A stretch of DNA of 64,000 nucleotides from Pseudonocardia sp. (GTDB lineage Bacteria > Actinomycetota > Actinomycetes > Mycobacteriales > Pseudonocardiaceae), in contig NZ_JAODNI010000102.1 in the NCBI RefSeq assembly GCF_025465255.1, positions 1 through 64,000 on the forward strand. The letters run 5' to 3'. The notes under the pieces are model-generated. The model was not told where the DNA came from. It saw only the letters and a list, made by a program, of their open reading frames with translations, and ran no database searches. Shown here one piece after another: positions 4,281 to 37,371 of this stretch (the stretch's first letter is position 1; every line of letters starts with the position of its first letter). A program made the translations under genes and the position numbers.

Positions 4281-7172
4281 CTAACCGTGCGGGGCGTGGA
4301 GCGGCCGGGTGGGAAGGGGGACGCCGATCTCGGCCCGCAGCGCCGCGGCGTCGGCGAGCAGGCCGGCCGCCGTCCGGTCGTCGCCCCCGGCGGTCGCGAC
4401 GCCGGCGAGGCCCTCGAGCGCCGCCGCCGTCCCGGCACGGTGACCGATCCGCCGGCACAGCTCCAACGAGCGCCCGAAGGCCGCACGGGCGGGCGCGCGC
4501 TCGCGCGCGGCCAGCGCGATCCGCCCGGCCAGGTGCAGCGCGGAGGCCTCGCCCTCCCGGTAGCCCACGAGCCGGTAGTGGCCGAGGGCCTCCTCCACCA
4601 GCCGCCGGGCCTCGGACACGTCGCCCCAGCGGTGCTCCAGCGAGGCGAGGACGTCGACGGCCAGTCCGCGCGCCAGCTCCTCCCCCACCTCGTCGGCGTG
4701 GGCCAGAGATCGGACCGCCACCGCCCTGGCCGCGTCCGGCTCGTTCCGGTCGCGGTGCAGCCGGGCCAGCTGTGCCTCCGCCATCGCTGCCCGCCACAGG
4801 TCGCCACCGGCGATCGAGGCTTCCACGGCGTCCTCGTAGAGCTGCCGAGCCCGGTCGAACCGGGCACGCGCCCACTCCACCGTGGCCTCCATCGCGAGCG
4901 CGTCCCCCTCCCACGCACGCTCCCCGGTGGTGCGCGCCAGCCGGAGCTGCTCGCCGGCCAGTACCGCGCTGGCCTCGAACTCGGCCCGGCCGAGATGCAT
5001 CAGGGCTCCGGCCGAGAGCAGGGGCAGGCGGTCCGACGGCCGGTCGGCGCCGACCGCATCGAGACCGGCGTGCACCCAGTGCAGTCCCTCGTCGCGTGCC
5101 CCCCGCAGATCCCAGTAGTGCCACAGGCATCCGACGAGCTGCGCCCCGGACTCGGGGTCGCCGCCCCGCCCGAACGACCATTCCAGCGCGGACCGGAAGT
5201 TGTCGCTCTCGCGGTGCAGCCGGGCCAGCCAGGGGGCGGAGTCCGCTCCGAACAGGTGCGCCCCGGATTCGGTCGCCCACACGAGGTAGTGGCGGGCGTG
5301 CCGCTCCCGCAGCAGGGGGAGTTCGCCGTCGGCGAGCCGCTCGCGGGCGAACCGGCGGGTGGTCTCCAGCAGGTGGTAGCGCATCTCGCCACCCACTCCT
5401 TCGTCGAGCTGGACCGTGCTGCATGCCACCAGCCGGGAGAGGAGCCGGGCGACATCGGCGCCGACGAGCTCGCCGCCTCCGGCCACCGCCTCCGCGGCGT
5501 CGAGCCCGAAGGCCGCAGGAAACACCGCGACCCGGGTCAGGAGCACCCGCTCGGCCGTCGCCAGCAGGTCATGGCTCCAGGCCACGGTCGCGGCCAGGCT
5601 GCGGTGCCGCGGGTCCGCGGTCCGGGTGGCGGAGTCGAGCAGCCGGAAACGGTTGTCGAGCCGGTCGGCGAGGTCCCGCAGCGGCATCGACGCCGCGCGG
5701 GCGGCCGCGAGCTCGAGAGCGAGCGGCAGCCCGTCGAGGCGACGGCACACGTCCAGCACGAGACGTGCGTTGTCCGCCGTGACGGCGAACCCGGGACGGG
5801 CCGCCGCCGCGCGCTCGGCGAACAGACGCACCGCCTCACACGACGCGATACGGCGCCAGTCGTCGTGCTCCGCGGCCAGCCCCAGCGGCCGCACCGGGTG
5901 GACCTGCTCCCCCGGCACGCCCAGTCGCTCGCGGCTGGTCGCGAGCAGTCGCATCCGCCCGACGCGGGCGAGCACGGCCTGGACGAAGGCCGCACAGTCC
6001 TCCACGAGGTGCTCACAGTTGTCGAGGACGATCAGGGTGTCGCGTCCGGACAGGGCCGCCGCGATCGTCGCGGTGAGGGCCTGGCCGGGCTCGGCGTGGA
6101 CGCCCAGCGCGGCGGCGAGGGTCTCGTCGAACAGCGCCGACGCCGTCAGCGGTGTCAGGTCGACGAGGAACGCCTCGGCCGCACCACCGTCGGCGAGCCG
6201 GCCGGCCACCTCCAGGGCGAGCCTGGTCTTGCCGGAACCACCGGGCCCGGTGAGGGTGACGAGACGATGCGTCCCGAGCAGCGCCGCCACCTCGTCCCGC
6301 TCGCGTGCCCGCCCGATGAAAGTGCTGACGGGCGCGGGAAGCCCGCTGCCGGGACGCCGGCCCTCCACCCGGGCCCGCAGCTCCAGGTCCCCGCTCTGCC
6401 GCAGGATCTCCCGCTCGAGACGTCGCAGATGCGGGCCGGGCTCCAGGCCGAGGTCGGCGGCCAGCCTCCGCCGCACCGCCCGGTACGTCTCCAGTGCCTC
6501 GGACTGCCGGCCGCAGCGGTACAGGGCGACCATGAGCCGGCCCCGCAGCCCCTCCCGCAACGGATGCGCCGCCACCAGAGCCTCCAGGTCCGCGACCACC
6601 TCGTGGTGGCGGCCCAGCCCCAGCTCGGCGTCCACCCGGAGCTCGGCGCACTGCACGCGGAGCTCGTCGAGGCGTACGGCCGCGTCCCGGGCGAATCCCT
6701 CCTCGAGACCGTCCAGCGCGGGCCCACGCCACAGGCCGAGTGCCTCGGCAAGTACCGGCGCCGCCCGCGCCGGGGCCCCTTCGACCAGCCGTCGCCCCTC
6801 CGCGAGAAGCGTCTCGAATCGGGAAGCGTCCAGCTGCTCCGGACGCACCTGCAGGGCGTACCCGCCGCCACGGGTGAGGAGCAGCGGCGGCTCCCCGCTC
6901 CCGCGAGGTCCCGCGACGGCCCTGCGGAGCCCGGCGATCGCGCCGTGCACCATCGTCGACGCGGTCGGCGGGGCGACACCGGGCCAGAGCATGTCGACCA
7001 GCTGATCGACCGGGACCGTGCGGCCGGCCTGGACCAGGAGCGCGGCGAGCACCGCACGCCGGCGCGTCGACCCCAACGCCAGCGACGTCCCGGTGGCGTC
7101 GTACGCGGTGACGGCGCCGAGGAGACCGAACGTCACCCTGCCCGGCCCGGCGTCCCCCGCTGCCCCGCCCAT
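4281..7172 (-). CDS. AfsR/SARP-family regulator with NB-ARC ATPase and TPR region
   Basis: Encodes 963 residues from ATG 7172, preceded by GGTGGAG; an in-frame ATG at 7256 would add 28 residues without better support. Domain order: OmpR-like winged helix (about 12-95; RRAVLAALLVQAGRTVPVDQ), bacterial transcriptional activator domain (about 100-245), NB-ARC ATPase (about 290-560) with Walker A GPGGSGKTRLA and Walker B LIVLDNCEHL, then TPR-type helices to the end. The large AfsR-type members activate secondary-metabolite or transport genes in response to phosphorylation or nucleotide. No biosynthetic cluster is nearby; the only candidate co-transcribed target is the FAD oxidase downstream. Confidence 0.9.
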   Translation of the reverse strand: MGGAAGDAGPGRVTFGLLGAVTAYDATGTSLALGSTRRRAVLAALLVQAGRTVPVDQLVDMLWPGVAPPTASTMVHGAIAGLRRAVAGPRGSGEPPLLLTRGGGYALQVRPEQLDASRFETLLAEGRRLVEGAPARAAPVLAEALGLWRGPALDGLEEGFARDAAVRLDELRVQCAELRVDAELGLGRHHEVVADLEALVAAHPLREGLRGRLMVALYRCGRQSEALETYRAVRRRLAADLGLEPGPHLRRLEREILRQSGDLELRARVEGRRPGSGLPAPVSTFIGRARERDEVAALLGTHRLVTLTGPGGSGKTRLALEVAGRLADGGAAEAFLVDLTPLTASALFDETLAAALGVHAEPGQALTATIAAALSGRDTLIVLDNCEHLVEDCAAFVQAVLARVGRMRLLATSRERLGVPGEQVHPVRPLGLAAEHDDWRRIASCEAVRLFAERAAAARPGFAVTADNARLVLDVCRRLDGLPLALELAAARAASMPLRDLADRLDNRFRLLDSATRTADPRHRSLAATVAWSHDLLATAERVLLTRVAVFPAAFGLDAAEAVAGGGELVGADVARLLSRLVACSTVQLDEGVGGEMRYHLLETTRRFARERLADGELPLLRERHARHYLVWATESGAHLFGADSAPWLARLHRESDNFRSALEWSFGRGGDPESGAQLVGCLWHYWDLRGARDEGLHWVHAGLDAVGADRPSDRLPLLSAGALMHLGRAEFEASAVLAGEQLRLARTTGERAWEGDALAMEATVEWARARFDRARQLYEDAVEASIAGGDLWRAAMAEAQLARLHRDRNEPDAARAVAVRSLAHADEVGEELARGLAVDVLASLEHRWGDVSEARRLVEEALGHYRLVGYREGEASALHLAGRIALAARERAPARAAFGRSLELCRRIGHRAGTAAALEGLAGVATAGGDDRTAAGLLADAAALRAEIGVPLPTRPLHAPHG

Positions 7173-26061: not shown

Positions 26062-27346
26062 CGCTCCGGGCGGCGCCCCTGTGAGGCGTCCGCCCGCTCC
26101 CGTACCGGCACCCGGCACCGCCGGAGCTGCAGACACCGAGCACGAGGCCGTGGATCGACGTCGCGCGCAGATCGACGCGGCCGTCGCCGAGGAGAACGCC
26201 GGCTCCGACGCGCTCTACGAGGACGCGCCGTGCGGCCACCTGTCCACGCTCCCCGACGGCACGATCATCAGGATGAACGACACGTTGCTGTCCTGGCTCG
26301 GGCGCGCGCGCGAGGACCTGGTCGGGTGGCGCCGGTTCAGCGATCTGCTCACCGTCGGTGGACGAATCCACTACGAGACGCACCTCGCACCGTTGCTGGC
26401 CATGCAGGGGACCGTGGGTGAGATCGCAGTCGAGCTCCGCACGGCGGACGGCGCACGGCTCCCCGTCCTCATGTCCTCCGTCGCCACCCGGGATGACGAC
26501 GGGAACCTGAGCCGGATCCGTTCCGTGGTGTTCGAGGCCCGCGACCGCCGCACCTACGAGAGCGAGCTGCTGCGCGCTCGCCGAGAGGCCGACGGGGAAC
26601 GGGACCGTTTCCAGCGCCTGGCCGGCGTGTTGCAACGAACGCTGCTGCCGCCGCAGCTGCCGGAGGTCCCGGCTATCGAGACCGCCGCCTACTACCACCC
26701 TGCTTCCCTCGACGAGGTCGGCGGCGACTTCTACGACCTGTTTCGGTTGCCCGACCAACGATGGGGCTTCTTCCTGGGCGACGTCTGCGGCAAAGGCGCC
26801 TCGGCCGCGGCGCTGACCTCGCTGGCCCGCTACACCCTGCGATCGGCCGCGGTCCACGACCCCGACCCCGTCGCGGTGCTCACGAACCTGAACTCCGTCC
26901 TGGCCCAGGAGCAGGACGGGTTCAACCCCAGGTTCTGCACGGTGCTCTTCGGAATCCTCGCTCCCGCGCCGGACCACGCCACGATCACCCTCGCCGGTGG
27001 CGGCCACCCACCGCCCCTGGTGCTCCGCGCCGACGGAACAGCCGATTTCGTGGACCTCGCCGGCGGCCAGCTCGTCGGCGCGCTCGCGGACCCCGTGTTC
27101 GTCCGCGCCGACGTCGACCTCGCCCCCGGCGACACGCTCCTGCTCTACACCGACGGCCTCACCGAGGCTCGTGTCGATACAGCCAGGAATCGCTACGACG
27201 AGCACGATCTCCGCCGGCTCGCCGGATCGCTCGCTCCGGCCTCGGCGGCCGGGATCGTCGGGTCGCTCACCGGGCTGCTCGAGGGGTTCGGTGACGGCCT
27301 CGACGACGACGCGGCCCTCCTCGCCATCGGGGTCGCCCGAACCTGA
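26048..27346 (+). CDS. rsbP: PAS-SpoIIE phosphatase, RsbP-like
   Basis: Encodes 432 residues. A proline-rich N terminus (1-35) leads to a PAS domain (about 55-165; YEDAPCGHLSTLPDGTIIRM), a coiled linker (about 165-195; ESELLRARREADGERDRFQR) and a PP2C/SpoIIE domain (about 205-430) with DEVGGDFYDLF, LGDVCGKGASAA, LLYTDGLTEAR and DDDAALLAIGV. It should dephosphorylate an anti-sigma antagonist (STAS protein) on an energy signal. No antagonist, anti-sigma or sigma gene lies in the window. The 14-base overlap with rsbQ implies coupled translation. Confidence 0.92.
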   Translation: MNHDDAPGGAPVRRPPAPVPAPGTAGAADTEHEAVDRRRAQIDAAVAEENAGSDALYEDAPCGHLSTLPDGTIIRMNDTLLSWLGRAREDLVGWRRFSDLLTVGGRIHYETHLAPLLAMQGTVGEIAVELRTADGARLPVLMSSVATRDDDGNLSRIRSVVFEARDRRTYESELLRARREADGERDRFQRLAGVLQRTLLPPQLPEVPAIETAAYYHPASLDEVGGDFYDLFRLPDQRWGFFLGDVCGKGASAAALTSLARYTLRSAAVHDPDPVAVLTNLNSVLAQEQDGFNPRFCTVLFGILAPAPDHATITLAGGGHPPPLVLRADGTADFVDLAGGQLVGALADPVFVRADVDLAPGDTLLLYTDGLTEARVDTARNRYDEHDLRRLAGSLAPASAAGIVGSLTGLLEGFGDGLDDDAALLAIGVART

Positions 27347-27437
27347 GGGCGCGATCCTCGTGTCGCCACCGCCGTCCGGGGCGGCGCTGTCGAACGCGGA
27401 CCGGGAGGAGGGCCTCCCCCTCCGGCCGGCTGGCAGC

Positions 27438-28304
27438 ATGAGGGTCGTGGGCACCAACGGCGGTACGGCCATCGTCCTGGGCGGGGGCGGCGTGCTCGGC
27501 GCCGTACAGGCGGGCATGCTCCGCGCGCTGCTCGAGTTCGGCGTCCAGCCGGACCTGGTCGTGGGCACCTCGGTCGGGGCACTCAACGGAGCGGTACTCG
27601 CGGCCCTGCCCCGGGACGAGGTGGCCGACCGGCTCGAGGCGCTGTGGCTCTCCCCCGAGGCGCAAAGCCTGTTCGCGGCGGGGACGGTACGACGGCTGCG
27701 CACGCTCGCCCACAGCGGCGTGGCCGCCCACTCCCCCGAGCCGCTGAGGCGGGCGGCGAGCACGGTTCTGGGCGGATGGCGGATCGAGGACCTGCCCGTG
27801 CGCTTCACCTGTTGCGCGGCGAGCATCGAGGACGCCGCGGAGCACTGGTTCGAGCACGGCCCGGCCGTCGACGCCGTGCTCGCGTCGGCCGCGGTACCGG
27901 GCCTGCTCCCGCCTGCGGTCGTCGAGGGGCGCCACTACCTCGACGGCGGCCTGGTCAACAGCATCCCCTTGGGCCGCGCGGTGGAACTGGGCGCCGAGCG
28001 GGTATTCGTCCTGCACGTCGGCCGTGTCGATCAGCCGCTGCGGCCGCCGAGGCGGCCTTGGGAGGTGGGGCTCGTGGCCTTCGAGATCGCCCGTCGACAC
28101 CGTTACGCACGCGATCTGGCCGCCGTGCCCGGGGGCGTCGAGGTGCACGTCCTACCCGCCGGCGAGGGCGGCGCGCCGCGGTGGGACAGCCGCGCCGCCC
28201 TGCGCTACCGCGCCACGACCGCGTCCGCCGATCGGATCGACGCGGCCTACCGGGCGTCGAAGGACTATCTGCGGTCGTGTCTCGGTACCGGAGGCCGGCG
28301 GTGA
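27438..28304 (+). CDS. patatin-like phospholipase
   Basis: Encodes 288 residues from ATG 27438; a GTG at 27361 is possible but gives a low-complexity start. Motifs: oxyanion stretch AIVLGGGGVLGAVQAGML, nucleophile elbow VVGTSVGALNGAV (Ser of GTSVG) and the dyad aspartate in YLDGGLVNSIPLG. The enzyme releases fatty acids from phospholipid or triacylglycerol. It follows rsbP by 91 bases and its stop overlaps the acyltransferase start (GTGA), suggesting lipid remodelling under the RsbQP stress signal; that link is inference. Confidence 0.9.
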   Translation: MRVVGTNGGTAIVLGGGGVLGAVQAGMLRALLEFGVQPDLVVGTSVGALNGAVLAALPRDEVADRLEALWLSPEAQSLFAAGTVRRLRTLAHSGVAAHSPEPLRRAASTVLGGWRIEDLPVRFTCCAASIEDAAEHWFEHGPAVDAVLASAAVPGLLPPAVVEGRHYLDGGLVNSIPLGRAVELGAERVFVLHVGRVDQPLRPPRRPWEVGLVAFEIARRHRYARDLAAVPGGVEVHVLPAGEGGAPRWDSRAALRYRATTASADRIDAAYRASKDYLRSCLGTGGRR

Positions 28305-31152: not shown

Positions 31153-32409
31153 TCACAGGACGGCAGTGGCGTGCTCGAGCGGGATGCCGGGGTCTCCGAG
31201 CCGGAGGGTGTCGACCCGCTCACCGGAGCGGATCAGCTCCCGGATCGGGTCACCGACCTCCCAGACGTTCACGTTCATCGCCGCGAGAACTCGTCCGTCG
31301 CTCACCCAGAAGGCGATGAACTCGCGGGCCGGAATGTCGCCGCGGACCACGACCCGGACGTCGCCGACCTCGGGATCGACGTGCCCGGTGTACTCCATGC
31401 CGAGCTCGTACTGGTCGGAGAAGAAGTAGGGAAGACGCTCGTAGGTGGCAGCCTCGCCGAGCATGGTCTTCGCGGCCACGACCGGTTGGTAGAGCGCAGT
31501 GGCCCAGTGTTCGACGCGCAGCTGCCGGCGCAGCAGCGGATGGTAGGCGTTGGCGACGTCGCCGACGGCCAGGATGTCGTCATCCGACGTGACCAGGTGC
31601 CGGTCCACGAGTATGCCGTTGTCGCAGTTCAGGCCGCACGCACGCGCCAGCCCGTCGTTCGGGCTTACCCCGATGCCGACGACGACGGTGTCGGCCTCGA
31701 TCACGGTGCCGTCGGCGAGCCGCACGGCGCCCACCCGCATCGGGTCGGCGGCCGCGGGCTCGATCGCCGAGACGGCGACCCCACAGCGCAGCGTGACGGC
31801 GTGCTCGCGATGCAGGTCGGCGAAGACCTTCGCCATCCGGGAGCCGAGGACCCGCAGCAGGGGCAGCTGGGCCTGCTCGAGCACGGTGACCTCGGCACCG
31901 CGCGCACGGGCTGCCGCGGCGGTCTCCAGGCCGATCCAGCCCGCGCCGACGATGACGACCTTTGCGCCTTCGCCGAGTTCGGCCCTGAGGTCGTCGCAGT
32001 CGTCGAGGCTCCGGAGGCAGCGCACGCCACCGAGATCGGAGCCCGGCACCGTCAGCCGCCGTGGTGAGGCGCCGGTCGCGAGGAGCAGCTTGTCGTAGGG
32101 CAGCCGGTCGCCGTGGCCGGTGGTGACCTCGTGGACGCCGCGGTCGATCCCGACGGCCGCGACGTCGAGCCTCAGTTCGACCTGGTGCTTCTCGTACCAC
32201 TCCGCGGGGTGCACGAAGACCGCGGATCGGTCCGAGCCACCCAGCAGGTATCCCTTGGACAACGGGGGCCGCTCGTACGGCCGGTGCGGCTCGCTCCCGA
32301 GCAGGACGAGGCGACCGTCGAAGCCTTCGGCGCGGAGCGCCTCGGCGGCCTTCGCGCCCGCGAGCCCCGCCCCGATGACGACGAACGTCGGAGAGGACGG
32401 GTCAGCCAC
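31153..32409 (-). CDS. FAD-dependent ferredoxin/rubredoxin reductase
   Basis: Encodes 418 residues from GTG 32409, overlapping the folE stop by 8 bases; an in-frame upstream start is less likely. FAD site FVVIGAGLAGAKAAEALRAE, NAD site KVVIVGAGWIGLETAAAARA, and the second FAD contact DDDILAVGDVANAYHPLL are clear, then a C-terminal reductase domain (LPYFFSDQYELGMEYTGHVD). It should pass electrons from NAD(P)H to a [2Fe-2S] ferredoxin or rubredoxin; no such partner or P450 is nearby. Third gene of the doxX-folE-reductase operon. Confidence 0.92.
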   Translation of the reverse strand: MADPSSPTFVVIGAGLAGAKAAEALRAEGFDGRLVLLGSEPHRPYERPPLSKGYLLGGSDRSAVFVHPAEWYEKHQVELRLDVAAVGIDRGVHEVTTGHGDRLPYDKLLLATGASPRRLTVPGSDLGGVRCLRSLDDCDDLRAELGEGAKVVIVGAGWIGLETAAAARARGAEVTVLEQAQLPLLRVLGSRMAKVFADLHREHAVTLRCGVAVSAIEPAAADPMRVGAVRLADGTVIEADTVVVGIGVSPNDGLARACGLNCDNGILVDRHLVTSDDDILAVGDVANAYHPLLRRQLRVEHWATALYQPVVAAKTMLGEAATYERLPYFFSDQYELGMEYTGHVDPEVGDVRVVVRGDIPAREFIAFWVSDGRVLAAMNVNVWEVGDPIRELIRSGERVDTLRLGDPGIPLEHATAVL

Positions 32410-33046
32410 GACGGCCACCGGTCGCGTCCGCACGCACCGACGTGGCGAGAGCCAGGAACTCGGCACGCGAGCGAGGGTCCTCGCGCAAGGTGCCGAGCAT
32501 GGTCGACGTGACGGTGCTCGTCCCGCCGGCCCGGACGCCGCGAAGAGACATGCACAGGTGCTCGGCTTCGATCACCACGCCGACGCCGCGTGGCTGCAGA
32601 TGAGTCCACAGCCAGTCGGCGACCTGCGTGGTCAACCGCTCCTGGACCTGGGGGCGGCGGGCGAACAGCTCGACCACCCGCGCGAGCTTGGACAGACCGA
32701 GGATCCGTGGACCGGGCAGATAGCCGATGTGGGCGGTGCCGAGGAACGGGAGCATGTGGTGCTCACACACCGAGTGCACGGGGATGCTGCGCGCCACCAC
32801 GAGCTCGTCGTAACCCTCGTCGTTGGCGAACGTGGTGAGGTCGAAGGAACGAGGGCTGAGCATCTCGGCGTAGCCGTGTGCCATGCGGCGAGGGGTGTCC
32901 GTGGTCGCGGCGGTGTCCGTGGGGACGCCGAGGGCGTTCAGGAACGCGGCGGCGGCGCGTTCGGCGCCGGAGAGGTCGATGCCCTTGGCGGGCGGGACGA
33001 CCCGCAACGGCGCGGGTGACGCGGAGGTGACCGGGGCGGCCGACAT
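32402..33046 (-). CDS. folE: GTP cyclohydrolase I
   Basis: Encodes 214 residues from ATG 33046 (GTG 33049 also possible); the start touches the stop of the DoxX gene (TGATG). SIPVHSVCEHHMLPFLGTAH has the zinc site CEHH; VVIEAEHLCMSLRGVRAGGT has the second zinc cysteine and the catalytic region. It makes 7,8-dihydroneopterin triphosphate for folate or tetrahydrobiopterin-like pterins. The gene is not next to other folate genes, so this may be an accessory copy in a redox operon. Confidence 0.95.
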   Translation of the reverse strand: MSAAPVTSASPAPLRVVPPAKGIDLSGAERAAAAFLNALGVPTDTAATTDTPRRMAHGYAEMLSPRSFDLTTFANDEGYDELVVARSIPVHSVCEHHMLPFLGTAHIGYLPGPRILGLSKLARVVELFARRPQVQERLTTQVADWLWTHLQPRGVGVVIEAEHLCMSLRGVRAGGTSTVTSTMLGTLREDPRSRAEFLALATSVRADATGGRRG

Positions 33047-33495
33047 CACGGGGTACGCGTCCGGGGGCCACGGTGGTCGAACGCGACGGCGAGGCGGGCG
33101 AGGGCGAGCGCGCCGACGAACAGCCCGAAGTCGCGCAGGGCGACGTCGAAGAAGTCGCCGAGGAGCAACAGGTCGACGATGATCCCGGCCAACCAGAGCG
33201 CGACGACATACCCGCCGATCCGCGGCAGCACCGCGACCAGCAGCCCGGCCAGGATCTCCACGACCCCGACCGCGAGCATCGCCTGGTGAGCTGACCCGGG
33301 AAGGAGACCGTCGACCTGCGGAGCCAGGTAGCGCTCCCAGCCGGTGAGCAGCCCGAAGAACTTGTCCAGCCCGAAGACCACCGGCGCCACGGTGAACACG
33401 GTTCGCAGCAGCAGGAAGGCCTGCCGGGCCGCCGGGACCGAGCCGATGTGGGGGTTGCCGAGAGCCGGAGCCGGTGGGTCGCGGTGAGTGGTCAT
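33046..33495 (-). CDS. DoxX-family membrane protein
   Basis: Encodes 149 residues from ATG 33495 with GGGAGAGACC ahead. Four hydrophobic segments are seen, among them AMLAVGVVEILAGLLVAVLP and GYVVALWLAGIIVDLLLLGD. The DoxX family are four-helix membrane proteins linked to thiol/quinone oxidation and, in mycobacteria, to a membrane oxidoreductase complex. It opens the operon with folE and the FAD reductase. Upstream lies an operator region shared with the regulator on the opposite strand. Confidence 0.85.
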   Translation of the reverse strand: MTTHRDPPAPALGNPHIGSVPAARQAFLLLRTVFTVAPVVFGLDKFFGLLTGWERYLAPQVDGLLPGSAHQAMLAVGVVEILAGLLVAVLPRIGGYVVALWLAGIIVDLLLLGDFFDVALRDFGLFVGALALARLAVAFDHRGPRTRTP

Positions 33496-33506
33496 GGTCT
33501 CTCCCG

Positions 33507-33538
33507 GTTCTAAAGGACGATAGCGTGAACGCTAGAAC
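33507..33538. promoter_or_regulatory. compound operator between doxX and its regulator
   Basis: Two nested dyads: outer GTTCTA (33507-33512) and TAGAAC (33533-33538), inner TAGCG-TGAA-CGCTA (33521-33534). They lie 12 bases ahead of the doxX start and 49 before the SufR-like gene start, in an AT-richer stretch, so one protein could control both directions. The adjacent regulator is the natural candidate. Confidence 0.55.
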
Positions 33539-33586
33539 CTCGACCCTCTTTAGTCAACGAAACTGTCCGATAGAAGGTGCAGATCG

Positions 33587-34276
33587 ATGGACGACTTCGT
33601 CTCGCAGGTCAACGGCGTCGGCGCGCTCGCCGAACCGGCCCGGCGGGCGCTGTATCTCTACGTGGCCGCGCAGTCGGAGCCGGTGAGCCGGGACCGCGCC
33701 GCCGAAGGCGTCGACCTGCCTCGGCACACCGCCAAGTTCCACCTCGACAAGCTGGTCAAGGAGGGCCTGCTCGACACGGAGTTCCGACGCCTGTCGGGGC
33801 GACGCGGCCCTGGCGCCGGCCGTCCGACGAAGCTCTACCGGCGCTCCGCGCGACAGGTGACGGTGACGCTCCCGGAACGGCGCTACGACCTGGCCGGCCA
33901 GATCCTCGCCGCCGGCGTCGACCTCGCAGCCGGCGAGGGCACACCGGTCCTGGACGCCGTCCGCCGCGCGGCGACCGCCGCGGGGCGCCGCCTCGGCGCC
34001 GCGCAGAACCGGCGAGCCGGCGCCTCCGCCGCGGTGACACCCGACGACGTCATGACGGCCCTGGCCGCCCTCGGTTACGAACCTCGCCCGCAGGGCGACG
34101 TCACCGTGCTGGCGAACTGCCCGTTCCACGCGCTGGCCCGCGAGCACACCGCACTCGTGTGCGGCATGAACCTGCAGCTCATCGAGGCGATGCTCGACGA
34201 GCTCGGGAACCCTTCGGTACAGGCCCGGCTCGACCCGGCCCCCGAGCGGTGCTGCGTGACGCTGACCCGCGAGTGA
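33587..34276 (+). CDS. HTH regulator with C-terminal cysteines, SufR-like
   Basis: Encodes 229 residues from ATG 33587. An N-terminal winged helix (about 12-90; EPARRALYLYVAAQSEPVSR and LPRHTAKFHLDKLVKEGLLD) is followed by the COG2345 C-terminal domain with Cys178 (LANCPFHALA), Cys192 (VCGMNLQLIE) and Cys222/Cys223. In the iron-sulfur regulator SufR the same region holds the cluster ligands, so a redox- or Fe-S-sensing repressor is likely. Divergent from doxX-folE-reductase, the presumed regulated operon. Confidence 0.82.
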   Translation: MDDFVSQVNGVGALAEPARRALYLYVAAQSEPVSRDRAAEGVDLPRHTAKFHLDKLVKEGLLDTEFRRLSGRRGPGAGRPTKLYRRSARQVTVTLPERRYDLAGQILAAGVDLAAGEGTPVLDAVRRAATAAGRRLGAAQNRRAGASAAVTPDDVMTALAALGYEPRPQGDVTVLANCPFHALAREHTALVCGMNLQLIEAMLDELGNPSVQARLDPAPERCCVTLTRE

Positions 34277-35790: not shown

Positions 35791-36228
35791 GTGACGGTGC
35801 AGGACAACGGCTCACCGATGTCGAGACCGCTGACGAAGCAGGACTTCGAGGCCCTGGCACGGTTCCGCTTCGGCATCCGGCGGTATCTCCGATTCAGCGA
35901 GGAGGCGGTTCGCGGCCACGGGCTGACCCCTCAGCAGTACCAACTCCTGCTGGCTCTGAAGGGCTTTCCCGGCCGCGAGTGGGCGACCGTCGGGGAGCTG
36001 GCCGAGCGGTTGCAACTGCGCCACCACAGCACGGTCGAACTGGTCAACCGGGCTCAGGGCCAGGAGCTGGTGGACAGGGCCGCGCATCCGGACGACGCCC
36101 GCGTCGTCCGGGTGGTCCTGACCCCTCAGGGCGAACAGGTGCTCGGGGAGCTCAGTGCGCTGCACCGCGACGAGCTCAGCCGGATGCGCAGCGTCCTCGC
36201 CCCGCCGCTGTGGCAGGAGCCCGGATAG
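35791..36228 (+). CDS. MarR-family transcriptional regulator
   Basis: Encodes 145 residues from GTG 35791. The MarR core is clear: LTPQQYQLLLALKGFPGREW, TVGELAERLQLRHHSTVELV for the recognition helix, and RAAHPDDARVVRVVLTPQGE for the wing. It faces the SPFH gene across a perfect TATCGT dyad. The ligand is unknown. The C terminus (LHRDELSRMRSVLAPP) is the dimer helix. Confidence 0.9.
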   Translation: MTVQDNGSPMSRPLTKQDFEALARFRFGIRRYLRFSEEAVRGHGLTPQQYQLLLALKGFPGREWATVGELAERLQLRHHSTVELVNRAQGQELVDRAAHPDDARVVRVVLTPQGEQVLGELSALHRDELSRMRSVLAPPLWQEPG

Positions 36229-36273: not shown

Positions 36274-37371
36274 GTGCCTGCCGCTTCCTCGACCCCGGAT
36301 CCGCGCACAGCCCGGGCGGCCGTCGTGGCCGGCGTGCTCGTCGCCGCCGTCGTGTTCGTCGCGACCCTGTTGTGGGCGAAGTGGCTGCCGTACGCGGCCC
36401 GGGTGAGCGACCTGCGGGCCGGCGGGGCGTGGAGCGGGTCGAGCGTCCTGGGTGTCGGAGGAGTCCGACCCGGTGACCCGCCGTCCTGGCACGCGGCCAC
36501 GTCGTTCACCGCCGCCTACGTCCAGGCGGTGTGGAAGGCGCTCGTCGCCGCCCTGCTGATCAGCGCCGCGCTCCAGTCGCTCGTGCCGCGGGCCTGGCTG
36601 CTGCGGCTGCTCAACCGCCGTGGCCGGATGAGCAGCGCGCTGGCCGGCGGGCTGTGCAGCACGCCGTCGATGATGTGCACCTGCTGCACCGCGCCGGTCG
36701 CGGTCTCCCTGCGCCGGTCCGGCGTGTCGACCCCTGCCGCGGTGGCGTACTGGCTGGGCAACCCCCTGCTCAACCCCGCGGTCCTGGTGTTCCTCCTGCT
36801 CGTCGCGCCATGGCAGTGGACCGTGACGCGCCTCGTCGTCGGCGCGCTGGTCGTCGTCGGCGGCGCCGCTCTCGTCGCCCGGCTCACCGACGGCCGGCGG
36901 GAGACGGTCACCCCGGCCGCGTCGTCACTCGCCGGGAACGACGAGCCGGAACCGGTCGGCACCGAACGGCTGTCCCGAGCGCCGGCTCGCTTCGGTCGCG
37001 CCCTGCTCCGGCTGTCGCTCGTCCTGGTGCCGGAGTACCTGGTGATCGTGCTGCTGATCGGGGCCCTCCGCGGCTGGCTGTTCCCGCTCGGCGCCGGCCT
37101 GAGCTCGGGGTTGCTCGTCGTGCTGACGGCCGCGGTCGTCGGCACGCTGCTGGTCATCCCGACCGCCGGGGAGATCCCGGTTCTGCAGGGCCTGGCCCTC
37201 GCGGGCGTCGCGGCCGGTCCGATCGGCGCACTGCTGATCACCCTCCCTGCGGTGAGCGTGCCGGGGATCGTCATGGTCGGCCGCGCCCTGGAATGGCGGA
37301 CCACCGCCGCGACGGCCGCGATGGTCGCTGCGGGCGGGCTGCTCGGCGCGGGCCTGCTTGCAGTGCTCTGA
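36274..37371 (+). CDS. permease with CTCC motif (ArsP/DUF318-like)
   Basis: Encodes 365 residues from GTG 36274. About eight hydrophobic segments are visible; after the first (AAVVAGVLVAAVVFVATLLW) a short extracytoplasmic loop follows. The family mark is MMCTCCTAPVAVSLRRSGVS with Cys135, Cys137 and Cys138, then NPLLNPAVLVFLLLVAP. Relatives include ArsP, a trivalent organoarsenical efflux permease, and putative permeases that move other soft-metal or organic compounds. Substrate unknown. The MarR gene precedes it, though a shared transcript is not certain. Confidence 0.8.
   Translation: MPAASSTPDPRTARAAVVAGVLVAAVVFVATLLWAKWLPYAARVSDLRAGGAWSGSSVLGVGGVRPGDPPSWHAATSFTAAYVQAVWKALVAALLISAALQSLVPRAWLLRLLNRRGRMSSALAGGLCSTPSMMCTCCTAPVAVSLRRSGVSTPAAVAYWLGNPLLNPAVLVFLLLVAPWQWTVTRLVVGALVVVGGAALVARLTDGRRETVTPAASSLAGNDEPEPVGTERLSRAPARFGRALLRLSLVLVPEYLVIVLLIGALRGWLFPLGAGLSSGLLVVLTAAVVGTLLVIPTAGEIPVLQGLALAGVAAGPIGALLITLPAVSVPGIVMVGRALEWRTTAATAAMVAAGGLLGAGLLAVL

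Follow-up and report, generated by a model that had tools for sequence, protein, structure and literature searches.

The 64,000-nucleotide window analysed here, positions 1 to 64,000 of contig NZ_JAODNI010000102.1 in a Pseudonocardia assembly (GCF_025465255.1, 92.5% complete), contains a run of three minus-strand genes and, facing them, the gene of a regulator, called REG below. The three encode a DoxX-like membrane protein, a second GTP cyclohydrolase I (FolE) and a flavin-dependent reductase (RED). The features of the locus are these:

31153-32409, minus strand: RED, an FAD-dependent oxidoreductase of the ferredoxin-reductase type, with a GTG start; Pfam scores of 222.3 bits for Pyr_redox_2 and 49.9 bits for Reductase_C.
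32402-33049, minus strand: folE, second GTP cyclohydrolase I, starting at GTG 33049 or ATG 33046; PF01227 at 206.6 bits (Pfam cutoff 27).
33046-33495, minus strand: DoxX-like four-helix membrane protein with four hydrophobic segments; DoxX Pfam match weak in relatives and none in the window protein.
33508-33537: operator TTCTA-N20-TAGAA, with an inner palindrome TAGCGT-GA-ACGCTA at 33521-33534.
33529-33534, minus strand: predicted -10 box of the doxX promoter, TAGCGT, after a 17-nt spacer and within the operator.
33552-33557, minus strand: predicted -35 box of the doxX promoter, TTGACT; TTGAC is present in 104 of 128 REG intergenic regions.
33567-33575: third half-site of the TTCTA type, 5' of the REG start, read in the sequence as TTCTATCGG on the minus strand.
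33587-34276, plus strand: REG, an ArnR-like winged helix-turn-helix (wHTH) regulator with HTH_20 (Pfam) and cysteines C178, C192, C222 and C223; model pLDDT 88.6.

The doxX-like gene overlaps folE by 4 nt if folE begins at its GTG and by 1 nt if it begins at its ATG, folE overlaps the reductase gene by 8 nt, and REG is transcribed divergently from the whole run. An initial annotation, made from the letters alone, had placed the genes correctly and noted that stops and starts overlap, and Pfam agrees with its naming of both enzymes. The best solved matches of RED include putidaredoxin reductase and the ferredoxin reductases of dioxygenases, and the two domains expected of a putidaredoxin-type reductase are both present. 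The third name, DoxX, is weaker. The four hydrophobic segments speak for it, as do the 10 of 22 aligned relatives (the window protein not among them) that match PF07681 at E<=1, with a best value of 5.3e-5, and a Rhodococcus opacus homolog that carries the annotation 'DoxX family'; but the window protein itself has no Pfam match even at E=1.

The combination of pterin synthesis with membrane redox functions had been thought unusual, and a check of gene order had been suggested. The order is kept elsewhere and, as judged by comparing gene neighbourhoods, the arrangement of doxX, folE and reductase facing a regulator is widespread in actinobacteria, not peculiar to the window genome. The loci compared were selected by similarity to the window proteins, and gene presence was judged by tblastn. 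There are 154 of them, 160 minus six with identical REG DNA; they include 20 genus loci, high-scoring picks from 33 matching genomes, and 40 order loci chosen among REG hits at E<=1e-40 that had not already been obtained through DoxX, some of them second copies in one genome. Divergent to REG lie DoxX in 88 of the 154, folE in 66 (truncated remnants at L039, L049 and L131 included), the reductase in 43 and a transaldolase in 10; REG stands with none of these at 18 loci, and 13 have no REG match. None of the 40 order loci has a DoxX hit, and folE is divergent to REG in 24 of them and the reductase in 12. At order loci the place of DoxX can be occupied by DUF2231, alone or together with a further four-helix protein. 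At two loci without the reductase (L120 and L122, assigned by gene cluster, L122 also domain-tested), a DUF2231-Rieske fusion and a ferric-reductase-like protein are found in its place. Counted by genome, REG matches 33 of 60 in the genus, paralogs included. In the order, a DoxX-subfamily protein is encoded by 25 of 200 genomes and is present in 14 of 60 genera. Plasmids carry the genes as well: on a conjugative Nocardioides plasmid the four genes, from regulator through DoxX-like gene and folE to FAD reductase, follow the order of the window, and on a linear Rhodococcus plasmid the regulator faces DoxX-folE, with tal and an FAD reductase on the regulator's side.

Between the divergent genes the initial annotation had placed a compound operator, at 33507-33538, and conservation bears it out. 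Among 128 non-identical REG genes with a divergent neighbour no more than 400 bp away (gene starts taken from the gene calls made here), 73 have the 30-mer TTCTA-N20-TAGAA with at most one mismatch, 33 of them exactly. At the same stringency 0.24 would be expected from shuffles that preserve base composition only. Among the remaining intergenic regions of these loci 7 of 786 contain the element, as do 3 of 193 when the divergent ones alone are counted. A predicted promoter, TTGAC followed after 17-19 nt by TAnnnT or TCTAnC, is found in 79 of the 128 regions. The operator begins 20-21 nt past TTGAC, that is, over the -10 box, in 46 loci and 18 nt before TTGAC in 11, and an element resembling the third half-site appears, by eye, at the same position in many relatives. 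Across the window genome the exact pattern occurs solely at 33508-33537, with three more places at one mismatch, as compared with seven for the reversed control pattern; the sister genome has one additional exact match, distant from the locus. The operator is conserved far above chance. As it is the sole exact site in its genome, and as none of ten genomes has the pattern more often than its control, REG probably acts locally and, judged from the anatomy of the site, on its own promoter.

The cysteines of REG say most about its kind. C178, C192, C222 and C223, to which the annotation had drawn attention, are all invariant in 31 aligned REG rows. Every one of 39 orthologs shows the pattern CX13C-X28-31-CC; 35 have X29, as the window protein does, and the other four have X28, X30 or X31. 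The annotation had read their arrangement as that of the Fe-S ligands of SufR, and there it erred, since the position of the first SufR ligand is absent and the spacing is that of ArnR. The portions of the ArnR study used here (PMC12343034) describe a regulator of Corynebacterium glutamicum that binds a [4Fe-4S] cluster through Cys179, Cys193 and Cys223, a spacing identical to C178, C192 and C222 of REG; NO abolishes its DNA binding, and single Cys-to-Ala variants lose both cluster and DNA binding. Profiles point the same way. Compared by HHalign with seven nar-adjacent regulators, which serve as stand-ins for ArnR (the C. glutamicum protein itself was compared through its published cysteine positions), REG gives E=1.2e-28 over its full length, as against E=1.2e-6 over part of its length with a SufR profile built from four sequences that resemble one another, two being incomplete. 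NCBIfam returns a weak ArsR-like match as its sole result for REG, and phmmer finds no solved relative at E<=0.1.

SufR operators occur in a CAAC form, as in C/GAAC-N6-GTTG. No operator of the type C/GAAC-N6-GTTG is present at the doxX/REG promoter, and the window as a whole has one match, at chance level. SufR, in the text available from PMC11995493, is a [4Fe-4S] repressor of the operon it adjoins and has an operator of the GAAC form. It shares with REG a helix-turn-helix and C-terminal cysteines. Unlike SufR, however, REG has no first cysteine, a spacing of 13 instead of 12, no suf neighbour (the suf genes of the window genome are on another contig) and a different operator. The genus has its own SufR upstream of sufB, with CX3CX12C and a fourth cysteine. 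SufR was rejected as the family of REG on these grounds: the cysteine motif, the operator and the separate SufR.

The fold gives a third line of comparison. The model of the whole protein matches mainly winged-helix domains, and for that reason the C-terminal domain was modelled alone (pLDDT 91.9). Its leading matches are TRAPP subunits: Foldseek gives them a probability of up to 0.99 with a best E of 0.01, and 124-127 residues align at an rmsd of 3.5 A (Z 9.2). Lower down come aromatic sensors of the V4R type, with Z values reaching 7.8, and H-NOX, reaching 6.2. The scores are modest, though the TRAPP rows top both fold lists and span the entire domain. A resemblance to TRAPPC3 is reported for the corresponding domain of ArnR in the same partial source (PMC12343034), so that both regulators would combine a wHTH with a TRAPPC3-related C-terminal domain. 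On all three counts, the spacing of the cysteines, the profiles and the fold, ArnR and not SufR is the characterised protein nearest to REG. Two tested features, the cysteine spacing and the pairing of wHTH with a TRAPP-like domain, place it in an ArnR-like family, and by analogy it likely works as ArnR does. It is not the nar-controlling ArnR itself: arnR is encoded directly downstream of narKGHJI (PMC12343034, in the part cited), whereas REG faces doxX-folE-reductase, not narKGHJI or hmp, and has an additional invariant cysteine in the CC at 222-223. The two settings do touch. Of 59 genomes of the order that have nar genes, 10 encode a REG-family regulator no more than about 10 kb from narH, where a rough estimate would give about 0.3. 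Three of the ten are REG itself; in one genome (G175) REG adjoins narI, and another (G225) shares those gene clusters.

Several other regulators came to light along the way. Seven nar operons, in several families of the order, lie near an ArnR-like CX13C regulator (L237-L243) and offer ready ArnR candidates. On R. opacus plasmid pLPS8 (L246) a REG paralog with the CX13C cysteines has fdxA-ctaD (for a ferredoxin and oxidase subunit I) on one side and DUF488 on the other, and adjoins folE-DoxX, tal and an FAD reductase. Behind each regulator of a related subgroup (L169, L170, L173, L179 and L187) a protein of 151-156 residues is encoded on the same strand; the one tested, that of L169, is DUF3291.

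The FolE of the window is not the only one in its genome. A housekeeping folE lies in a run ftsH-folE-folP-folB-folK (read by eye), and at least two FolE genes are present in 13 of 16 genomes examined, a picked set consisting mostly of carriers. In a tree of 63 rows, 15 housekeeping copies fall on one side of a branch with 100/100 support and, on the other, 36 rows linked to the operon and 12 second copies, some being the same genes. Linked FolE is thus unlike the housekeeping enzyme in forming a distinct actinobacterial clade, at 45-52% identity to it, and like it in the zinc and catalytic residues and in its Pfam and PDB matches. The window protein conforms to the Pfam and NCBIfam models of GTP cyclohydrolase I and has the zinc and catalytic residues looked for. 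Its zinc ligands C95, H98 and C166 are intact, and all 77 of the linked sequences compared (170-320 residues only, not deduplicated) retain the three, so the idea of a zinc-sparing replacement was rejected. Intact zinc ligands in a separate clade argue for a dedicated paralog, probably active as an enzyme, not a zinc-free substitute. A pterin cofactor for an aromatic hydroxylase was also rejected as its purpose, since a pterin-dependent aromatic hydroxylase was found in 0 of 20 genomes searched, 19 of which carry REG (the other, G076, has no REG match).

I propose that the operon is autoregulated and derepressed by NO or redox stress, and that it provides extra pterin together with electron transfer. 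REG would be an ArnR-like dimer, with an N-terminal winged helix and a C-terminal domain resembling TRAPP, V4R and H-NOX proteins, in the latter of which C178, C192 and C222 probably hold a [4Fe-4S] cluster, with C223 as a possible fourth ligand. With its cluster, REG would bind TTCTA-N20-TAGAA over the -10 box of doxX and so repress doxX-folE-red; by way of the third half-site it probably represses its own gene too. Once the cluster was damaged by NO or oxidation, REG would leave the DNA, and the operon would be expressed. More FolE would then mean more dihydroneopterin triphosphate and from it reduced pterin, the FAD reductase, dependent on NAD(P)H, would feed an unlinked ferredoxin or other acceptor, and the DoxX-like protein would be the partner in the membrane, the whole serving membrane-linked redox protection or repair. 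The dimer, the cluster, its ligand, repression, the pterin output and the acceptor I infer, and I give the proposal as a whole about an even chance of being right. The mycobacterial DoxX-SseA-SodA membrane oxidoreductase complex, as outlined in the consulted part of PMC10501769, likewise ties a DoxX-type membrane protein to redox protection, although neither sseA nor sodA was recognised among the neighbours scanned in the window and the DoxX similarity there is weak. In yeast a different enzyme, GTP cyclohydrolase II, has been linked to NO resistance, which offers an analogy only.

A number of observations weigh against this proposal. The operator at one mismatch or fewer is missing from 55 of the 128 REG promoters (21 have two mismatches, 34 three or more). 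No wider regulon was seen either: each of the ten genomes scanned has fewer copies of the 30-mer than of its reversed control and, given as well the single exact site in the window genome, a genome-wide regulon of this 30-mer was rejected. The window genome has no narH, so that the nar-controlling role of ArnR has no counterpart in it (hmp was not searched for). The nar-adjacent stand-ins are closer to SufR, at E=1.8e-11, than REG is, and neither model of REG has a Foldseek match that reaches E 0.001. As a label for 33046-33495, DoxX is weak. In 48 of the 154 loci DoxX alone of the genes tested faces REG, which makes folE and the reductase accessory. In a sister species, whose REG is 93% identical, the reductase and most of folE have been lost, which makes this cargo dispensable. 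The scar of that deletion can be seen at L039, positions 5384-5411, where doxX, the operator and REG are kept.

What REG senses could be something else. It might be a SufR-type sensor of Fe-S supply and the operon a part of Fe-S homeostasis, a view encouraged by the common domain order, the three ligand positions and the partial profile similarity. It is encouraged too by 14 loci, mostly in Arthrobacter and its kin, where an aminotransferase-V gene (cluster c8) comes next after REG; the one tested is NifS-like, below the curated cut-off. The missing first cysteine, the wrong spacing, the SufR that the genus already has and the lack of a SufR-type operator make this distinctly unlikely. The cysteines might instead form a zinc site, or C222-C223 a thiol/disulfide switch, by which REG would sense a metal, sulfide or electrophiles. 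The vicinal pair is invariant, the best neighbours of the whole model include metal and thiol sensors of the ArsR type (mainly over the wHTH), and a template for the ArnR domain, according to the ArnR study (PMC12343034), is TRAPPC3 with zinc bound. The same study sets against this an ArnR of the same spacing that holds a [4Fe-4S] cluster and loses it, along with DNA binding, when a cysteine is replaced. I regard a zinc or thiol sensor as unlikely, though still a live rival to a cluster-bearing REG.

What the operon is for invites two further explanations. The extra FolE might be a stress-induced backup isozyme for folate, with no tie to a redox use of pterins: it looks like a complete enzyme beside an intact housekeeping copy, and the genomes searched have no pterin-dependent hydroxylase to serve. 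On the other hand, a backup whose zinc ligands match those of the housekeeping copy spares no zinc, a scan of neighbours (not systematic) recognised no further folate gene, and the reductase comes along in 43 loci. This explanation is somewhat improbable but deserves to be kept in view. Or the operon might serve a bacterial NO synthase as a source of electrons and of its pterin cofactor, REG in turn responding to the NO. The window genome does have a gene for an NO synthase oxygenase (472 bits, on another contig, G000:C81:10932-11963), and so do 11 of the 19 REG-bearing genomes among the 20 searched, the window genome included. The order at large tells less for it. NO synthase occurs in 37 of its 200 sampled genomes, and 50 of the 69 that bear REG are without it; REG is present in 19 of the 37 that have NO synthase and 50 of the 163 that do not, a weak association (Fisher p=0.02, uncorrected for kinship, on counts of 69, 37 and 19 tallied by hand). 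NO synthase as an obligate client was rejected as weak, and the explanation as a whole is very improbable. The proposal of an NO- or redox-derepressed operon supplying pterin and electrons is the one I retain.

A wider idea goes beyond that proposal. The loci may represent a widespread, partly plasmid-borne defence module, in which an ArnR-like [4Fe-4S] sensor of NO or redox state would induce a pterin pathway apart from folate, a membrane protein of the DoxX or DUF2231 kind and a ferredoxin-reductase chain, reduced pterin being made and recycled as a reductant against NO and oxidants. Sometimes the pathway would include a transaldolase-family dihydroneopterin aldolase. Such a role for transaldolase was predicted in 2007 for clusters with folK and, in the portion of PMC1971073 used here, left unproven; three of the transaldolases, tested against NCBIfam, fit the model of the mycobacterial type. 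I consider the module in this full form doubtful.

The kind of regulator is already known; new are the operon, its operator and the additional invariant cysteine. In the open-licence PMC literature no paper was found with both 'DoxX' and 'GTP cyclohydrolase', nor with these and 'actinobacteria', and among the matches listed by wider searches of the same literature no title or start of abstract describes the operon. The ArnR-like family, known in the sources consulted through a corynebacterial regulator of nitrate respiration, gains a broader setting, a conserved pairing of regulator with pterin and redox genes across Actinomycetota, and the operator is defined well enough to be tested directly. 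The question posed is why a second GTP cyclohydrolase I, under regulation and next to genes of electron transfer, is retained by actinobacteria in which no pterin-dependent hydroxylase can be recognised.

Two neighbours in the window may be mentioned. A gene for an ArsP-type permease (83.6 bits) at 36274-37371 lies downstream of a MarR-type gene at 35791-36228. On the other side, about 3 kb from RED, is a patatin-like phospholipase (111 bits) at 26997-28304; the operon on pNOCA01 and DoxX in L131 likewise have patatin genes after them, which may be coincidence.

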